DNA from: Microcystis wesenbergii NRERC-220
GTDB taxonomy: Bacteria; Cyanobacteriota; Cyanobacteriia; Cyanobacteriales; Microcystaceae
Assembly (NCBI RefSeq): GCF_032027425.1
Contig: NZ_JAVSJA010000001.1
Span: 372,001-436,000, forward strand
Length of the DNA stretch: 64,000 nucleotides
Direction of reading: 5' to 3'
The translations under genes were made by a program, and so were the position numbers. The notes under the pieces are model-generated. The model made no database searches and was not told where the DNA came from. It saw only the letters and a list, made by a program, of their open reading frames with translations. Shown here in pieces: positions 30,880 through 38,813 of this stretch (its first letter is position 1; each line of letters starts with the position of its first letter).

Positions 30880-31306
30880 ATGCCCGTTATCAGTCGTAAG
30901 AAATTAAATGAATTTGCCGAAAGGTATCCCGAAACAAAATCAGCATTAAAAGAATGGTATCAAAAAATGAAGACAGGACAATTTCAGTCCATAGCAGAAT
31001 TAAGAACCATTTTCCCCAATGCTGACGAAGTAGGAAAACTGACTGTATTTAACATAGGCGGAAATAAGATTAGACTCATAGCAGCGATTCATTACATCGA
31101 CAAAAAATTTATAGCGCTTCCTAAGCTAGTGAGGTACATCTATTTTCTTCCCTTTTGCCTTTTGCCGTTCGGCTGAGCTCACGGCCGAAGCCTCTTGCCT
31201 TTTGCCTAAAACCCATAACTTTTGTACCTCAGCAGACTGAAAAACGCTATATATTCGAGAAGTTTTAACTCATGCTGAATAGGACAAAAACAAATGGAAG
31301 GAGTAA
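30880..31306 (+). pseudogene. higB: HigB-type toxin interrupted by a MITE-like insertion
   Basis: The first 69 codons (MPVISRKKLNEFAERYPETK, later VGKLTVFNIGGNKIRLIAAI) match the HigB/RelE-like host-inhibition toxin family. At 31111 a ~140-bp element starts; beyond it at 31249 the family C-terminus resumes as YIREVLTHAE, a stop (TAG where Tyr would be expected), then DKNKWKE and the natural stop at 31304-31306. A truncated 98-residue product reading into the element is possible but would lack the catalytic C-terminal region. An antitoxin gene follows 4 nt later. Confidence 0.8.
31111..31250 (+). mobile_element. MITE-like element in the higB gene (ATAGCG...CGCTAT)
   Basis: The left end ATAGCGCTTCCTAAGCTAGT and the right end, read inversely, ATAGCGTTTTTCAGTCTGCT share scattered matches and then both continue GAGGTACA, giving ~30-bp imperfect terminal repeats. 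Inside are GCCTTTT heptamers around the GCCGTTCGGCTGAGCTCACG palindrome. Removing it rejoins toxin codons FI-YIREVL. Flanking TATA suggests a short A/T-rich target. Confidence 0.75.
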
Positions 31307-31532: not shown

Positions 31533-31603
31533 ATGGTAGGGGTGGTGCGTTCCCAAATATTGGTTAACCTTGAAATTGTCATGTTTTCAGGGAGGACACC
31601 CTA

Positions 31604-31708
31604 GGAAAGAATGCGAGCGCCCTGCAAGAAAATATCCTTACCCTCCTGATCGCCTACGAAACCGCCGGCGATCGGGAACAGGCGATCGCCGCTCCCCTGC
31701 AATCTTAA
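31604..31708 (+). pseudogene. Short coding remnant, family not recognised
   Basis: An in-frame stretch reading ALQENILTLLIAYETAGDRE and ending AIAAPLQS with a stop, containing a GCGATCGC site. It has no start or upstream domain. It may be the tail of a lost gene; TPR-like character is possible but unproven. Confidence 0.35.
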
Positions 31709-31718
31709 CGAGTAATTT

Positions 31719-31804
31719 ATACTAAATCCAGTTATTAAAGACTGATTGTTTATTCCCATGAGTGCCTGTCCTGATATGTAGCCTATACTCAACGGATTTA
31801 GTAT
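31719..31804 (+). mobile_element. MITE-like element with ATACTAAATCC termini, copy A
   Basis: An 86-bp element with exact 11-bp terminal inverted repeats ATACTAAATCC/GGATTTAGTAT. Inside are GTTATTAAAGACTGATT and GCCTATACTCAAC. The same element, inverted and enlarged, is at 53168-53299. A related fragment ATACTAAATCCTG lies at 45069. Around it, the 31533-32123 gap holds only the remnant above and a candidate promoter. Confidence 0.8.
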
Positions 31805-31993
31805 TAGATAGTCAACAGCTTATTGCAATGGGGACAAACCATTAAGCGAATCGAATAATTGTAAATTTTTGTCAAGAGGTGCGGTCAGATCGAAGAATCA
31901 TCGCTATAACTCCAGAAAAATCCTGTTATTTTAGCTTATTGTCAGAAATTTAGTTAATTGCGCTAAAATGGGGTGATATGCCGAAAGTTTCCG

Positions 31994-31999
31994 TATAAT
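31994..31999 (+). promoter_or_regulatory. Candidate -10 for the glucan lyase operon
   Basis: TATAAT at 31994-31999 lies ~125 nt before the 86-aa gene. I see no good -35 at 17-18 nt. The following leader has short pairings (ATAG/CTAT, GAGG/CCTC, ATCCAA/TTGGAT at 32016 and 32090) so a structured 5' leader is possible. The later CCCACCTACTTT resembles CACCTACCTACTT upstream of the kinase gene at 10722. Confidence 0.35.
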
Positions 32000-32123
32000 C
32001 CATAGTTAGGCGTACATCCAAGCTATAGGAGACCACGAGGCTCAACACATCCTCTGTTCATATCGCAATTGCTCGTACTTGAAAGGATTGGATTTTTATT
32101 CCACCCACCTACTTTAGGAAGCC

Positions 32124-32384
32124 ATGAACAAATTGCTAAAATCTTATCACGCAGTTCGGGAATTTCTAGAATTTCACACGCAGATTTATGGCACAGGGAG
32201 AATGCAAAAATTTCATGCCAACGACTTTAATACCCTTTACGAAGATGTATTAATGAGTCCGGGAGATACCCATATTCCCTTTGCTAGTGTCGATGAAGAA
32301 GGAAGATTTTTCTATCCTTGGCATCAATATTATGCTGATACTGATTGTATTTGGATGGCGAATGAATTTCATCCCATCAGCTAA
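32124..32384 (+). CDS. Hypothetical 86-residue protein upstream of the glucan lyase
   Basis: An 86-residue protein (MNKLLKSYHAVREFLEFHTQ ... GDTHIPFASVDEEGRFFYPW, then HQYYADTDCIWMANEFHPIS). It is rich in aromatic and acidic residues, has no signal peptide or membrane segment, and I do not recognise a family. The glucan lyase ATG is 39 nt downstream with no terminator between, so the two are likely one operon and the small protein may act with the enzyme or its product. No function is claimed. Confidence 0.6.
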   Translation: MNKLLKSYHAVREFLEFHTQIYGTGRMQKFHANDFNTLYEDVLMSPGDTHIPFASVDEEGRFFYPWHQYYADTDCIWMANEFHPIS

Positions 32385-32423
32385 ATACTCAATTTAATCT
32401 TTGTAACTTAATTGGAGTCAATC

Positions 32424-35400
32424 ATGTTAAATGAAATTTTTGCGGCTAATGATGCCTATAAATTCCTGAAAGTAGAAGACTATTTTTATCGTTATAAAGA
32501 ATGGGAAAAATTAGAAAAAGTCACTTCTCATTCTTTTGACCAAGATAGCGAGCGTCTCAGTCTTAAATTTACCAAAGCCGACGGGAGAAACTGCTGTCTG
32601 TTAATTCAATTTATTCAAAAAGATACTTTTCGTGTGCGATTCAATCCCAGTTACGAATCTGGTGAACAATATCCTACAGAAAATACTCGCTCGGTTGTTA
32701 TGGATAGCATTGAAGAACTTAGAACAGTTCTCAAAGCTAGTGAAAATTTCCAAGTAAGTATTCAGGAAAATAATGAACAAGTTGAACTGAAAACACAAGG
32801 GACAGATGACCATCCTAGCTTAAAAATGGTTGTCAAGTTTAATCCTTTTGTGATTGAAGTGTTTGGCTTCTCTACCGAAACTAATGACTATTTCAGAGTT
32901 TGGCAAACCGCTAATCCTGGAATCTACTATACTTCTAATGGAGCAGAAGATTATGCCATTATCCAAGCGGTAAATAAACCAGCTACTGCCAAATATATTG
33001 GCTTTGGGGAACAAGGAGGACAGGGTTTAACCAAAAATACAGCCCAGTTGAATTATTTCAACTTTGATAATATGCGCTATCGACAGGTTTATAATCGAGG
33101 TCCTTTAGATGACAGAGAACCCCTTTACCATTCTGATCCTTTCTTTTTTGAATTTAATGGTGTTCCCGATCAAAAGAGTGTTAATGCCATTTTTATTGAT
33201 AACCCCGGTCAAATCTTGGTTGATGTGGGTTATATGAATTCTGGTCGCTATATGTTTGGAACTCGCTTTGGTATCTTAGATTACTTTTTCTTTTTAAATA
33301 GTGAACCCCGTCATGTCTTAGACGATTTTACCTCAATTGTCGGTCGTCCCCGTTTAAAACCTCGCTACATTTTAGGCTATCATCAGGGATGTTATGGTTA
33401 TGATAGTCGAGGTAGTGTCGAATGGGCTGTTGGAAAATATCGAGATTATCAGATTCCTTTGGATGGTCTTCATATTGATGTAGATATTCAACATAACTAC
33501 CAAACTTTTACCATTGATACTAATAAGTTTCCTGACCCTTTATCAATGTTTGATAATTTGCGAAAAAAGGGGTTAAAATGCAGTACAAATATAACTCCTG
33601 TTATTAGTAACAAAGATATCAATTATCAGACCTATCAGGAAGGATTAAGCAATAGTTATTTCGTCTTAGATAAACGTTATGACCCCGATAATCCTGCTAG
33701 TCGCTCCTATCAGTGCTATGGTGGAGGCAACGAATATCGTCCCAATGATCCCGATAAAATACAAGGATTTAACAGTGGTCAACCTTATATCGGAGAAGTT
33801 TATTATGGCAATGATGCCTATGGCAATGAGTTAGGAACGCCAGGTCATTATCCTGATTTTGGGCGAGGCGAAGTGCGAAAATGGTGGGGAACCCAATATC
33901 AATATCTCTTTGATATGGGGTTAGAAATGGTCTGGCAAGATATGACAACCCCTGCTATTCGTGAGACTCGTGGGGACATGAAAGGGTTTCCTTTTCAACT
34001 CTATGTGACCAGTGATTTTATTTCTGGTGTCACGCCTCAATTAACCCCTGCAATTAAAGTCTGGAACCTTTATGCTTACAATCTCCATAAAGCGACTTAT
34101 CATGGACTAAATTATCTACCTGGACGGGATAATAAACGCAACTTTATCATTGGGCGAGGTAGTTTTACTGGCTCTCATCGCTTTTCAGGATTATGGACGG
34201 GAGATAATGCTTCGGATTGGGATTTTCTGCGGATGAATGTTTCTCAGGTTCTTTGCTTGGGAATGTGTGGACTTGCTATCTGCGGTCAAGATATCGGTGG
34301 TTTTGAAACCTCATCTATAGATGATGGAAAATGGGCAAGTCCTGAGCTTTTAATTCGTTGGACAGTGGCAGGTGCTTTCTTACCTTGGTTCAGAAATCAT
34401 TATGTCCGAAAAGGACGCAAGGAATTTCAAGAACCATTTATGTATTTAGAATACTTCCAAGAAAGGAATCTGCCTATTCCTCAACCCCAAGATTTGTATG
34501 CAATGGTATTGCCGATTTGCAAACATTATATTGAATTGCGCTATCGGTTGATGCAGCTTTTCTATGACTGCCTTTTCGAGAATTGTTTGGATGGAATGCC
34601 GATTTGCCGTCCTATGTTTCTTAATGATCCTCAAGACCAGTCTCTTTATAATGATAAAGAATATTTCCTTGACAACCAGTTTTTTGTTGGAAAGGATCTT
34701 CTCATTTCTCCTGTTACCAAACCTCAAGCGGAGACGAATGGAGGTAAATGGGATGTTTATCTACCCCAAGGTAGTAATTGGTATTGTTTTATGAACAACC
34801 AACTACCTTTAGCCAGTTTAGTTGAAGGAGGAACGACGATTCGAGATTTTGATGCGAATCTTAATCTTGAGGGGAAACACATTAATTTCATCGTTCCTAT
34901 CTATGTTCGTTCAGGTGCAATTATTCCCATGATTGAGCTTGAACAATATGTAGGAGAACTGAATCAGCAAGGTAAACCCAATCCTATTACTTTGAATATT
35001 TACCCCGGTCAAAGTGGTGAATATACAATGTATTTAGATGATGGGGTGAGTCGTTCTTCAGCAGTGGACAAACCGGAAGAGCAAGGGGGTGATCCACTAG
35101 CGAAGAGTGAATATCGCCAAACTCAGATTACCCATCAATACATAGCACCGAAAAATCGTGAGATTAAGATAGAGCGTATTCATGATAAATATACGCCTAA
35201 GTACGAGACGTTTTTCTTTGTTGCTATTTTGCACGATCCTTCTGAAACTCAGGGAAGCTCTGGTTCTTTGAATAAAGTTATTCTCAACAATCAAGAAATC
35301 CAGAAATTAGGCAATGGAGATTATAATGCCCTCAATGGGGCTAGTTTGAATGCTTGGTATTATAACCCAACCATTAATATTAGCTTTATTAAGGTATTTG

Positions 35401-35441
35401 ATAATCTCCCTTCGGTCACGATAACTTTGGAGTATGCTTAG
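32424..35441 (+). CDS. Alpha-1,4-glucan lyase-like GH31 enzyme
   Basis: A 1005-residue GH31 protein from the ATG at 32424 (GGAG 7 nt upstream). Segments LKPRYILGYHQGCYGYDSRG, IPLDGLHIDVDIQHNYQTFT and MVWQDMTTPAI resemble red-algal and fungal alpha-1,4-glucan lyases rather than bacterial alpha-glucosidases. The candidate nucleophile is Asp506 in WQDMTTP and the candidate second catalytic Asp is Asp594 in LWTGDNAS. The C-terminal PVYVRSGAIIPMIE-like and YLDDGVSRSSA segments are also shared. Lyases split alpha-1,4-glucan by beta-elimination to 1,5-anhydrofructose (EC 4.2.2.13). No signal peptide, so the substrate would be intracellular glycogen. I see no GCGATCGC in the gene, unlike many neighbours, which fits acquisition. 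Lyase versus hydrolase activity is inferred from similarity. Confidence 0.85.
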   Translation: MLNEIFAANDAYKFLKVEDYFYRYKEWEKLEKVTSHSFDQDSERLSLKFTKADGRNCCLLIQFIQKDTFRVRFNPSYESGEQYPTENTRSVVMDSIEELRTVLKASENFQVSIQENNEQVELKTQGTDDHPSLKMVVKFNPFVIEVFGFSTETNDYFRVWQTANPGIYYTSNGAEDYAIIQAVNKPATAKYIGFGEQGGQGLTKNTAQLNYFNFDNMRYRQVYNRGPLDDREPLYHSDPFFFEFNGVPDQKSVNAIFIDNPGQILVDVGYMNSGRYMFGTRFGILDYFFFLNSEPRHVLDDFTSIVGRPRLKPRYILGYHQGCYGYDSRGSVEWAVGKYRDYQIPLDGLHIDVDIQHNYQTFTIDTNKFPDPLSMFDNLRKKGLKCSTNITPVISNKDINYQTYQEGLSNSYFVLDKRYDPDNPASRSYQCYGGGNEYRPNDPDKIQGFNSGQPYIGEVYYGNDAYGNELGTPGHYPDFGRGEVRKWWGTQYQYLFDMGLEMVWQDMTTPAIRETRGDMKGFPFQLYVTSDFISGVTPQLTPAIKVWNLYAYNLHKATYHGLNYLPGRDNKRNFIIGRGSFTGSHRFSGLWTGDNASDWDFLRMNVSQVLCLGMCGLAICGQDIGGFETSSIDDGKWASPELLIRWTVAGAFLPWFRNHYVRKGRKEFQEPFMYLEYFQERNLPIPQPQDLYAMVLPICKHYIELRYRLMQLFYDCLFENCLDGMPICRPMFLNDPQDQSLYNDKEYFLDNQFFVGKDLLISPVTKPQAETNGGKWDVYLPQGSNWYCFMNNQLPLASLVEGGTTIRDFDANLNLEGKHINFIVPIYVRSGAIIPMIELEQYVGELNQQGKPNPITLNIYPGQSGEYTMYLDDGVSRSSAVDKPEEQGGDPLAKSEYRQTQITHQYIAPKNREIKIERIHDKYTPKYETFFFVAILHDPSETQGSSGSLNKVILNNQEIQKLGNGDYNALNGASLNAWYYNPTINISFIKVFDNLPSVTITLEYA

Positions 35442-35476
35442 ACCCACATTATGTGGTGTCTTCAAAATAAAGTTTT

Positions 35477-35509
35477 GACTGCCTGTAAATAAATAAAAAA
35501 CAGGCAGTC
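35477..35509 (+). terminator. Hairpin after the glucan lyase gene
   Basis: GACTGCCTGT (35477-35486) and ACAGGCAGTC (35500-35509) form a perfect 10-bp stem with a 13-nt A-rich loop, 36 nt past the stop. No long T-run follows, so termination is likely but not certain. Confidence 0.6.
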
Positions 35510-35528
35510 GAAACCTTATGTCCACAGC

Positions 35529-35681
35529 TTATTTTTTTTTGTTCTTCGTTACTTGGTATGGTTTGATCGGGGGGCATAAATCGACTAAATCCTTATCCGG
35601 CAAAAGACTTAATTGATTAGTTCGTTCTAGTCGGGTGTGGGGTAAAATCGGTGGCGATCGGCTTTCTCCATGGTTCAGGTT
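35529..35681 (-). pseudogene. C-terminal coding remnant on the minus strand
   Basis: A 50-codon open stretch with protein-like composition (SRSPPILPHTRLERTNQLSL, then LPDKDLVDLCPPIKPYQ) and a lysine-rich end. It is bounded upstream by a stop at 35682-35684 and has no start codon. It looks like the tail of a lost gene; family unknown. The rest of the 35442-35760 gap has a CCGTC/GACGG hairpin near 35728-35742. Confidence 0.35.
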
Positions 35682-35760
35682 CTAGCATATATCGTGTAAA
35701 TGCGCTAATATTCAAACTAAAGCCGTCCTCAAAAGACGGGGTTTGGGACTCAATTTTTCG

Positions 35761-36894
35761 ATGACGACAATAATCGACGAGTTAAGGCAACAGTGGCAAG
35801 ATCGCCTCTCTCAAACAGAGGATTCCTTAACCGATCGCCAACGGGATACCATTATCAATTGGTTACTCGGTGAAGATAGCCAACGTTGGGAAACTTTGGA
35901 CCAGAGAGATTTAGAAATCGCTAAACGGGGATTAGTCTATCTTTGGCAAATTCTGCGGCAACGCTATCTGAAAGTTAGTCCCACCCGCGCCTATCGTAAC
36001 CTGATTGATCGTCTCGGCGCTTGTGTCACTCTCCGGCAACAAATTCGCACTTGGGTTTCCCTAAGTCGCGATCGTCAGCAAGCGGTGGCCGATGTCTTGC
36101 AAGAAATTATTCAAGAGATGTTAAATAGCGATCGCTATCTACAATCCCAGTTAGCATGGATCGCTCGTTGTACCAATGATCAAGCTACTCGTGATCAGCT
36201 GCTGTTAGCCACCCTAGAGGAATACGCCCTGCGTCCGATCCGCAATCAACCCCTGTTAGCCTATCGTTTTGTTAATTATCTCCGTCGTCAATCGAGAAGC
36301 GGTATCACTAATGTGCCGCGGCAAGAAATGATCCGGATTCTCTCCGATGAAATTAGTGGCGATGAGGGGGAAAATAGCTTAAGTTTACTGGATCAAAATG
36401 CGATCGCTACCGACGAAGATCAACGCACTTGTCAAGAAGCGCAAATTCTCCGGGCAAAAGTTCAAGAGAGTTTTGCTAGGTATCTAGAGGAAAATGTTAG
36501 TCCGGAGGCGGTGACTTGGTTTAACCTCTATCTAGGGGGCGAAAGCCAAGATGCGATCGCCAAAGCGATGAATATTCCCATTCAACGGATTTATCGTATC
36601 CGGGAAAAAGTTGGCTATCATGCGATTAAGGTTTTTGCCCTCAAGGAAGGGACAGAATTAATCAGTGAATGGTTACAAATCAGCCCGAAAGAGCATAATT
36701 TTGGCTTAACTCTCAGTCAATGGCAAAGTTACTATGCTGGCCTTTCTCCCACGGGTAAAAGCGTTATCGATGGCTTAAAAGCGGGTAAAACCCTTGAGGA
36801 AATCGCCGGGGAATTAAACTGTAAACGCACGCAAGTGGTCAAAGAATGGACGAAACTTTATCTAAGCGCCCAAAGTCTCAGGACAAAAACCTAA
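35761..36894 (+). CDS. HetZ-related protein
   Basis: A 377-residue protein from the ATG at 35761 (MTTIIDELRQQWQDRLSQTE). DRQRDTIINWLLGEDSQRWE, PTRAYRNLIDRLGACVTLRQ, AWIARCTNDQATRDQLL and YRFVNYLRRQSRSG match cyanobacterial HetZ and HetZ-like proteins, HetZ being needed early in heterocyst differentiation in Anabaena. The C-terminal third has two sigma-like helix-turn-helix segments (SQDAIAKAMNIPIQRIYRI and KTLEEIAGELNCKRTQVVKE). In a unicellular organism it must have another role, perhaps a DNA-binding regulator. A TTG 18 nt upstream is a less likely start. Confidence 0.82.
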   Translation: MTTIIDELRQQWQDRLSQTEDSLTDRQRDTIINWLLGEDSQRWETLDQRDLEIAKRGLVYLWQILRQRYLKVSPTRAYRNLIDRLGACVTLRQQIRTWVSLSRDRQQAVADVLQEIIQEMLNSDRYLQSQLAWIARCTNDQATRDQLLLATLEEYALRPIRNQPLLAYRFVNYLRRQSRSGITNVPRQEMIRILSDEISGDEGENSLSLLDQNAIATDEDQRTCQEAQILRAKVQESFARYLEENVSPEAVTWFNLYLGGESQDAIAKAMNIPIQRIYRIREKVGYHAIKVFALKEGTELISEWLQISPKEHNFGLTLSQWQSYYAGLSPTGKSVIDGLKAGKTLEEIAGELNCKRTQVVKEWTKLYLSAQSLRTKT

Positions 36895-37040
36895 TCAGTT
36901 ATCAGTTATCAGTTATCAGTTATCAGTTATCAGTTATCAGTTATCAGTTATCAGTTATCAGTTATCAGTTATCAGTTATCAGTTATCAGTTATCAGTTAT
37001 CAGTTATCAGTTATCAGTTATCAGTTATCAGTTATCAGTT
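36895..37040. repeat. Tandem AGTTATC heptamer array (~21 copies)
   Basis: 146 bp of almost perfect (TCAGTTA)n starting one base after the hetZ-like stop, ending in TTCACTGAG. CCCACAC/CCCCACA heptamers follow at 37054-37108. The array codes in all frames without stops on one strand (ISYQLSV repeats), which is an artefact. Confidence 0.95.
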
Positions 37041-37137
37041 CACTGAGAAAACTACCCACACCCCACACCCCACACCCCACACCCCACAACCCACACCCCA
37101 CAACCCATCCCCTTTTTGATTTTTGACTTCAAGAAAT

Positions 37138-37298: not shown

Positions 37299-38813
37299 AT
37301 GACCATTGGTATTTGGATTTTAGGGGATCAATTATGGACAGGACAAGCTGCCTTAGCTAATCGTCAAGGCTATTCACAGGAAACGCCGGTTATTTTAATT
37401 GAATCCCACACTCATATTCGACAAAGACCCTATCATCAGCAAAAATTAGTTTTAATCTGGTCGGCGATGCGTCATTTTGCCGAAGAATTAAAAACTTTAG
37501 GATGGTCTGTCACCTACGAAGTTGCTGAAGATTTTGAACCGATTTTATCTGCTTGGATTAAACGATTAGGCATTAAAGAATTACAGATCATGATGCCTAA
37601 TGATTTGCCCTTTCTTAGATTAATTAAAAATCTCAATTTAGACTGTGCTATAACCCTAATTGATAATAATCACTTTCTCTGGACAAGGACAGATTTTAAT
37701 AATTGGGCTAAATCTCGTAAAAGACTATTACTAGAGGATTTCTATCGAGAAAGTCGCAAAAAATGGCAGATTTTAATGGAGGATAATCAACCCATAGGAG
37801 GACAATGGAACTTTGATAAACAAAACCGTAAACCGCCCAAAGATGGCTTAAAAACTGCTGCTCCTCTTTGGTTTGAACCCGATGAAATTACCCTTCAGGT
37901 TATCGCTGATGTGGAAGCTTTAGATATTCCTAAATATGGAAAAATCAAACCTTTTCGCTGGGCAGTAAACCGCAGACAAGCTTTACAGGTTTTGGAGCAT
38001 TTTATTACTAATTGTCTGCCCAACTTTGGACCCTACCAAGATGCGATGGTAACGGAAGAAGAAACCCTCTGGCATTCCCTATTATCTCCCTATCTTAATC
38101 TAGGATTACTAACGCCGTTGCAAGTGATTCAATCGGCAGAAATTGCCTATAAAAAAGATAATTTAGCCCTGAATAGCATCGAAGGATTTATCCGTCAGGT
38201 GTTGGGATGGCGGGAATATATGCAGGGAATTTATCATTATTTGGGAGAAGATTACGCTAATCGTAATTGGTTTGAGCATCAACAACCCTTACCGGCTTTC
38301 TTTTGGGATAGTAACCAAACCGAGATGAATTGCCTCAAACAAGTATTATCACAGGTGGAAAATACTGGTTATGCCCATCATATTCAAAGATTAATGATTT
38401 TGAGCAATTTTGCCCTAATTTTTGGTTGCTCTCCCCAAGAGATTGAAAACTGGTTTCATAGTGTTTTTATCGATGCCTACGATTGGGTAATGCAGACTAA
38501 TGTACTGGGAATGGGACAATTTGCCGATGGGGGAATTCTCGCCTCTAAACCCTACGCTTCCTCTGCCAACTATATTGATAAAATGAGTGATTATTGTCGG
38601 GGTTGTGTGTATAAAAAAAATGAACGAGTCGGGGATTTCGCCTGTCCTTTTAACTTTCTTTACTGGGATTTTTTGGCACGACATCGAGAAAAATTAAAGT
38701 GCCAAGGTCGAGTTAATATGATTTTAGGTCATCTCGATCGAATGTCGGCAGCTGAACTTAATCAAATGCGCTGCCAGTCCAACCAATTAAGAGCCAAGCT
38801 GTTGACTATCTAA
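37299..38813 (+). CDS. FeS-type photolyase/cryptochrome-related protein
   Basis: A 504-residue member of the deoxyribodipyrimidine photolyase-related (FeS-BCP, PhrB/CryB) family. Four cysteines, C345, C433, C436 and C449 (CRGCVYKKNERVGDFACP), match the spacing of the [4Fe-4S] ligands in Agrobacterium PhrB, a 6-4 photolyase. The start IGIWILGDQLW and the FAD-binding VTEEETLWHSLLSPYLNLGL and QVLGWREYMQGIYH are typical. It likely repairs 6-4 photoproducts with blue light and FAD; a signalling role is possible. Translation is probably coupled to the 52-aa gene upstream. Confidence 0.9.
   Translation: MTIGIWILGDQLWTGQAALANRQGYSQETPVILIESHTHIRQRPYHQQKLVLIWSAMRHFAEELKTLGWSVTYEVAEDFEPILSAWIKRLGIKELQIMMPNDLPFLRLIKNLNLDCAITLIDNNHFLWTRTDFNNWAKSRKRLLLEDFYRESRKKWQILMEDNQPIGGQWNFDKQNRKPPKDGLKTAAPLWFEPDEITLQVIADVEALDIPKYGKIKPFRWAVNRRQALQVLEHFITNCLPNFGPYQDAMVTEEETLWHSLLSPYLNLGLLTPLQVIQSAEIAYKKDNLALNSIEGFIRQVLGWREYMQGIYHYLGEDYANRNWFEHQQPLPAFFWDSNQTEMNCLKQVLSQVENTGYAHHIQRLMILSNFALIFGCSPQEIENWFHSVFIDAYDWVMQTNVLGMGQFADGGILASKPYASSANYIDKMSDYCRGCVYKKNERVGDFACPFNFLYWDFLARHREKLKCQGRVNMILGHLDRMSAAELNQMRCQSNQLRAKLLTI

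Follow-up and report, generated by a model that had tools for sequence, protein, structure and literature searches.

The window analysed here is a 64,000-nucleotide (nt) stretch of the Microcystis wesenbergii NRERC-220 genome (contig NZ_JAVSJA010000001.1, positions 372,001 to 436,000), and our subject is a pair of open reading frames (ORFs) on its plus strand that lie 39 nt apart, at the positions given by an earlier sequence-only reading. The first, at 32124-32384, encodes an 86-amino-acid (aa) protein for which neither Pfam nor NCBIfam gives a match at E ≤ 1. The second, at 32424-35441, starts with ATG and encodes an intact, uninterrupted protein of 1005 aa. This protein belongs to glycoside hydrolase family 31 (GH31), with matches to PF01055 (E 1.5e-75), PF21365 (E 3.2e-17) and PF13802 all above the Pfam cut-offs and one to PF17137 slightly under it (24.7 against 27). 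It is the sole PF01055 match of the 4.68-Mb genome, and the WQDMTTP, RNFIIGRGSF, LWTGDNAS and YLDDGVSR blocks from which the sequence-only reading had likened it to glucan lyases are all present. We consider it very likely that this large protein is a cytosolic GH31 alpha-1,4-glucan lyase, that the small ORF is a scar from a deletion of about 2.25 kb, and that the fuller operon encodes a split form of the fungal enzyme aldos-2-ulose dehydratase (AUDH).

A scan of genome contigs for relatives yielded 41 loci, from which 34 lyases were aligned with the window protein to give 35 rows. The alignment excludes L011, L012, L016, L027, L033, L040 and L042, which are fragmentary, split or dissimilar; L033 and L040 belong to one genome as separate contigs, and L042 matches at 29%. 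For comparison, we used 28 cyanobacterial GH31 glucosidases from the 30 loci that match the window protein best, a non-random sample. The catalytic Asp pair, D506 and D594, is present in all 35 lyase-type rows and all 28 glucosidases and aligns with the WQDM and GDN aspartates of 2x2h, the lyase of the alga Gracilariopsis lemaneiformis (EC 4.2.2.13). Three further positions set the groups apart. Position 391 is Thr in 35/35 lyase-type rows and Asp in 28/28 glucosidases, and position 509 is Thr in the same 35 rows and Glu in every glucosidase. Position 389 is Asn in 34 of the 35 rows, including the window protein, and Thr in the remaining one, where all 28 glucosidases have Ile. The sequence-only reading had asked for a check of lyase-specific residues near the catalytic Asp, and all three positions are of the lyase type.

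In the window, the corresponding plus-strand codons, located by alignment, are 33588-33590 for Asn389 (the equivalent of lyase Asn459, Ile in hydrolases), 33939-33950 for D506-M-T-T509 (the nucleophile and the Thr that replaces the hydrolase Glu) and 34203-34205 for Asp594, the catalytic acid, which we take to be the equivalent of the lyase catalytic acid Asp665. A change from Glu to Val three residues after the nucleophile is said to shift a hydrolase towards lyase activity (work attributed to Rozeboom, 2013). In the profile alignment, 2x2h reads CQTNITC and WQDMTVP at the discriminating positions. Its printed chain has the nucleophile at index 542 and the Asn at index 448, so that in the published D553 numbering the Asn becomes residue 459. 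In a passage of a review (PMC12441222), Asn459 assists D553 in the lyase, with Ile at that position in hydrolases.

The lyase profile matches 2x2h in one stretch of 287.5 bits (total 292.1), against 131.9 bits for the best single hydrolase stretch in the five alignments printed (R. obeum). A mixture-model tree of 12 of the 35 lyases and 10 of the 28 glucosidases separates the lyases and 2x2h from 12 glucosidases at 100/100, and placing 2x2h with either of two reference hydrolases is rejected by the approximately unbiased test (p 2e-5 and 1e-11). A larger quick tree, with 14 of the 28 glucosidases, agrees: the window lyase group joins the Gracilariopsis lyase, apart from the cyanobacterial glucosidases, as the sequence-only reading had expected of a GH31 phylogeny. 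When the predicted structure was searched with Foldseek, 2x2h was the best match by E-value and by query-normalised template-modelling (TM) score (0.78).

The algal enzyme shares with the window protein the GH31 fold, the Asp pair, the Asn at position 459, the loss of the hydrolase Glu after WQDM and the LPWFRNHY block. The window protein differs in being bacterial and in having Thr instead of Val after WQDMT; 2x2h has at most 33% identity to any row of the mixture-model tree, and in many relatives such lyases have AUDH-type genes alongside. Cyanobacterial GH31 alpha-glucosidases (~785 aa) share the catalytic domain and the Asp pair, but they carry I, D, N, N and E at the discriminating positions and fall on the opposite side of the tree.

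The protein could instead be a lyase-like but otherwise ordinary GH31 enzyme, an intracellular alpha-glucosidase or transglucosidase, and several results do weigh on that side. The top total profile score belongs to a hydrolase, MGAM, with 312.9 bits over four stretches (best stretch 96.1), above the 292.1 of 2x2h, and MGAM likewise comes first by phmmer. The best NCBIfam match is the alpha-glucosidase MalA, at a score far under its cut-off. In Foldseek, the FjDex31A dextranase is nearly tied with 2x2h by E-value and exceeds it in target-normalised TM score (0.87 vs 0.77), and the model itself is weak at the active site, with predicted local distance difference test values below 50 at residues 508-512, 575-596 and 617-626. 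The trees are long-branched and have a single characterised lyase, the algal 2x2h, as reference, with no fungal lyase included, and the open-licence literature that we searched reports no activity for a bacterial member. On the other side, three residues constant in 28/28 glucosidases (the Glu that follows the nucleophile, and Ile and Asp in the next block) are changed in 35/35 lyase rows and of the lyase type in 34 or 35; the tree and the AUDH genes beside the relatives also speak against a glucosidase. We regard that alternative as most improbable. The sequence-only preference for a glucan lyase is thereby supported by residues, trees and partner genes in relatives, and the gene product would very probably release 1,5-anhydrofructose (AF) from glycogen.

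The history of the 86-aa ORF can be read from its closest relative (84% nt identity), locus L034 of Pseudanabaena sp. SR411. Window positions 32005-32147 match L034 3303-3449 at 83% nt identity, and positions 32148-35538 match L034 5700-9092 at 84%. Between these two stretches, L034 has about 2.25 kb that the window lacks, comprising a SnoaL-like gene flanked by the remainder of a propeller gene and two thirds of a cupin gene. The window ORF begins with MNKLLKSY, matching the MNKLLKPY start of the L034 propeller, and continues with HAVREFLE, identical to the L034 cupin from residue 161. These matches make the 86-aa ORF the scar of an in-frame fusion, in which propeller codons 1-8 (32124-32147) run into cupin codons 161-238 (32148-32384). 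The original upstream region of the operon still lies 5′ of it, with the conserved promoter or leader region and the first eight codons of the lost propeller gene at 32005-32147 on the plus strand.

Of AUDH, the window itself has neither the propeller nor a whole bicupin, the cupin being down to 78 residues. A search with the propeller family PF22301, covering the genomes of 39 of the 41 loci (all but L040 and L042), was positive in 12, of which 11 carry the propeller at the lyase locus and one, the genome of L005, on a separate contig. With these hits as positive control, the window genome gave no match, and no propeller remnant was detected elsewhere in the window (best E 0.19). The propeller has been lost in other lineages too, with short remnants retained in L007 and L025; 27 of the 39 genomes gave no match, several of them being incomplete metagenome-assembled genomes (MAGs).

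Could the 86-aa ORF nevertheless be a functional half-cupin that still works with the lyase? It is intact and in frame, it has kept the operon's start codon and upstream region, and its 78 cupin codons show a ratio of nonsynonymous to synonymous substitution rates (dN/dS) of 0.08 against L034. Shorter versions also exist, since the cupin-type ORF of the Gastranaerophilales locus L023 is only 149 aa. However, residues 1-160 of the 238 in a bicupin are missing from it, so that the first cupin and the opening strands of the second are gone, and the constraint can predate the deletion, the same part being similarly constrained between L034 and L025 (0.048). We therefore hold a working partner to be very unlikely and keep to the deletion scar. 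The sequence-only reading was right that the ORF is real and has no family match, but not in calling it a small partner gene, and a survey of its neighbourhood, as that reading had proposed, showed that the conserved neighbour of these lyases is a longer cupin gene rather than an 86-aa one.

The cupin gene adjoins the lyase in 27/41 loci, and both parts of an AUDH, as separate beta-propeller and bicupin genes, stand beside it in 10/41, in several phyla. AUDH turns AF into microthecin. The propeller protein of the relatives matches PF22301 (E 4e-60) and, by sequence search, residues 19-432 of the Phanerochaete chrysosporium AUDH, 4a7k (E 1.6e-104); its sequence predicts a seven-bladed VCBS propeller. 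A His that is invariant in 11/11 propeller rows (the L008 row being the second piece of a split ORF only) aligns with H155 of 4a7k, presumably the catalytic residue. The cupin protein, of about 238 aa, is a bicupin whose predicted fold matches AUDH residues 454-735; the cupin ORF of L021 is split as well. What is one 900-aa chain in the fungus would accordingly be two genes beside the lyase in these bacteria, lost or truncated in the window. Together the two L034 proteins measure 657 aa, and AUDH carries a C-terminal lectin-like domain.

Here, too, part of the evidence pulls the other way. Thirteen of the 41 loci have neither cupin nor propeller, although some of these have little flank or reach a contig end. 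The matches of the cupins to PF18637 are weak (E ≤ 0.1 in 18 of 28 members, best 1.3e-4), three of the cupins also match GlgX_C (best E 0.0037), and PDB sequence searches with the cupin alignment and with one protein returned no AUDH. We link the cupin to AUDH because of the weak Pfam match together with the fold comparison, sequence search by itself being insufficient. Many cyanobacteria have the lyase and cupin without the propeller, so that in these loci the cupin may act on another substrate.

Other genes accompany the relatives. SnoaL-like small proteins are encoded near the lyase in several cyanobacteria, at L034 4708-5151, L009 9239-9778, L013 9332-9880, L017 9332-9718 and L041 9529-10077, either between propeller and cupin or 3′ of the lyase. 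PF12680 is above its cut-off in four of these five loci and slightly below it in L041, and the protein is a candidate for a further tautomerase or isomerase. In Pseudanabaena sp. SR411, an amylo-alpha-1,6-glucosidase-like gene (L034 9117-11714, PF06202 E 1e-9) lies directly 3′ of the lyase, a neighbour that fits glycogen as the substrate. The lyases of L036-L039 (Thiodiazotropha, Marinilabiliaceae, Vibrio penaeicida and Polarisedimenticolaceae) are longer, at 1124-1159 aa, and fall outside the other bacterial lyases in the quick tree; in three of these four loci the propeller gene is 3′ of the lyase.

The AUDH propeller also occurs in a second cyanobacterial setting. In L108 (26-7014, genome G358) and L109 (28-6921, genome G395, which is also that of L005), genes for a GMC oxidoreductase, a ferritin-like protein (Pfam-checked in L109 only), a pentapeptide-like protein (assigned by eye), a xylose-isomerase-like TIM barrel and an AUDH propeller stand in a row, with no match to a lyase or AUDH-type cupin within the ~12 kb covered. 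The propeller is therefore not tied to the lyase alone. Fungal pyranose oxidase and AUDH reportedly make cortalcerone together, to go by the title of a 1992 paper, and by analogy these clusters may feed a cortalcerone-type pathway from glucosone.

From the observed sequences, homologies, gene linkage and deletion relative to Pseudanabaena, we infer the following enzyme activities, substrate, cell location and fate of AF. Asp506 would attack the glucose at the end of an alpha-1,4-glucan chain, most likely in the cell's own glycogen, and, aided by Asn389, would then remove the C2 proton, so that AF rather than glucose leaves. In the fuller operon, as in Pseudanabaena, with propeller protein, SnoaL-like protein, cupin and lyase, the propeller protein would probably dehydrate AF to ascopyrone M, and the bicupin would probably isomerise this to microthecin, the two halves of the fungal AUDH being separate proteins. 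In the window strain, the in-frame deletion took the SnoaL-like gene, nearly all of the propeller gene and two thirds of the cupin gene, and the end product would be AF only, or whatever a general reductase makes from it.

The relatives are found mainly in cyanobacteria and also in Paenibacillus filicis, Vibrio penaeicida and MAGs of Bacillota, Bacteroidota, Spirochaetota, Chloroflexota, Actinomycetota and others, some contigs of which may be misbinned. In a sample of 386 genomes of its own phylum, only the window genome and G318 carry a full-length relative, the remaining matches being ~785-aa GH31 proteins or fragments. In the genus, 2 of 12 genomes have the lyase: the window genome and G389, whose copy covers residues ~353-1005 at 93% identity. 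This second copy (L074) matches window 33478-36933, lacks the first ~352 residues, is open in frame for 660 codons and is followed by the same downstream gene; the sequence upstream of the fragment matches neither the window nor the other loci compared. In another genome of the order, a short piece (G278:C173:84872-85114) matches lyase residues 928-1004 at 57% and may be what is left of a lost lyase gene.

Four of the 12 genus genomes have the site without the locus. In L085, L087 and L090, the window flanks at ~31622 and ~35585-35588 are adjacent or at most 3 nt apart, and in L084 positions 31623 and 35631 are 46 nt apart; the other six genomes are uninformative, their upstream flank being other sequence or a contig end. 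The segment missing from these relatives (31624-35585, no strand assigned) comprises a repeat resembling a miniature inverted-repeat transposable element (MITE), the operon remnant and the lyase. The lyase protein is 85% identical to that of Pseudanabaena, where the best match of a photolyase-like window protein, our single control and possibly not an orthologue, reaches only 41%. This difference, together with the patchy presence, favours horizontal transfer, as the sequence-only reading had held. As origins, we rejected viruses (48 stretches of viral contigs matched the lyase alignment, none a relative) and plasmid carriage (the 195 matching plasmid records all fall below 60% identity, so that the collection contains no close copy).

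The lyase shows a dN/dS of 0.17 against L034 and 0.18 against the G389 fragment over 653 codons, and was therefore under constraint for most of that time, although this constraint may predate the deletion. The synonymous divergence (dS) of the two genus copies is 0.19, against 0.075 for the adjacent HetZ-related gene, a misfit with simple descent that makes recombination or two acquisitions at this site possible. A further reading, compatible with the protein being a lyase, is that decay affects the whole locus and that the lyase gene has fallen out of use, a pseudogene-to-be. The partner genes are gone, G389 retains only part of the lyase and 10 of the 12 genus genomes have no match; yet the window gene has 1005 intact codons, has kept its catalytic and signature residues and shows low dN/dS between the genus copies. 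We consider decay a tenable but lesser possibility. What we probably see in the window is a trimmed, horizontally acquired anhydrofructose operon in which the lyase was kept and the dehydratase lost.

Composition adds to the picture. The sequence-only reading had called the absence of GCGATCGC from the lyase gene consistent with acquisition; the absence stands, but the surrounding GCGATCGC-free gap of 4.4 kb ranks only fourth by size among those of the window, and we rejected it as weak evidence. The low GC of the lyase gene (38.4% vs 45.0% for the window) is a better sign, though a photolyase-like ORF at 37299 is likewise low (38.9%). The MITE-like dispersed repeat (31717-31810, no strand assigned; inverted repeat 31710-31743 / 31780-31813) lies just 5′ of the operon remnant, outside the operon proper. 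When 31533-32150 was searched against the genome, 46 of the 51 matches listed sat on query positions ~179-281, that is, on this repeat; with 40 of 207 candidates scored, these counts are lower bounds. An inverted repeat 3′ of the lyase (35467-35519, plus strand; 20-nt arms, 90% complementary, 13 nt between) is a possible terminator. Close to the insertion site lies an ORF for a HigB-like toxin of 98 aa (30880-31176, PF09907 E 1.4e-20), and 3′ of the HetZ-related gene a tandem repeat at 36846-37046 codes for SVISYQL repeats, near which most genus genome alignments break.

Descriptions of the anhydrofructose pathway concern fungi and red algae. In the passages available of a 2025 review, fungi and red algae are given as examples of microorganisms with glucan lyases, and fungi are described as converting AF to antibacterial ascopyrone and microthecin (PMC12441222). 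In the open-licence literature, searched by title and abstract start, we found no bacterial or cyanobacterial operon of a glucan lyase with a split AUDH. We lean, by a small measure, towards the view that several phyla carry such an operon, leading from glycogen to microthecin, an antimicrobial pyranone, or to ascopyrone, and that the window lineage acquired it horizontally and, through one in-frame deletion, was left with AF as its end product. With split AUDH genes next to it in cyanobacteria, Paenibacillus, Vibrio, a Bacteroidota MAG and others, the lyase acquires a bacterial pathway context, with a predicted product, microthecin or ascopyrone, that would be traceable by mass spectrometry. 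A split AUDH would separate the two reactions into two proteins that could be assayed individually. The window also warns that a small ORF next to an enzyme gene may look conserved and yet be a scar, and it illustrates how one in-frame deletion can reduce such a pathway to its opening step.

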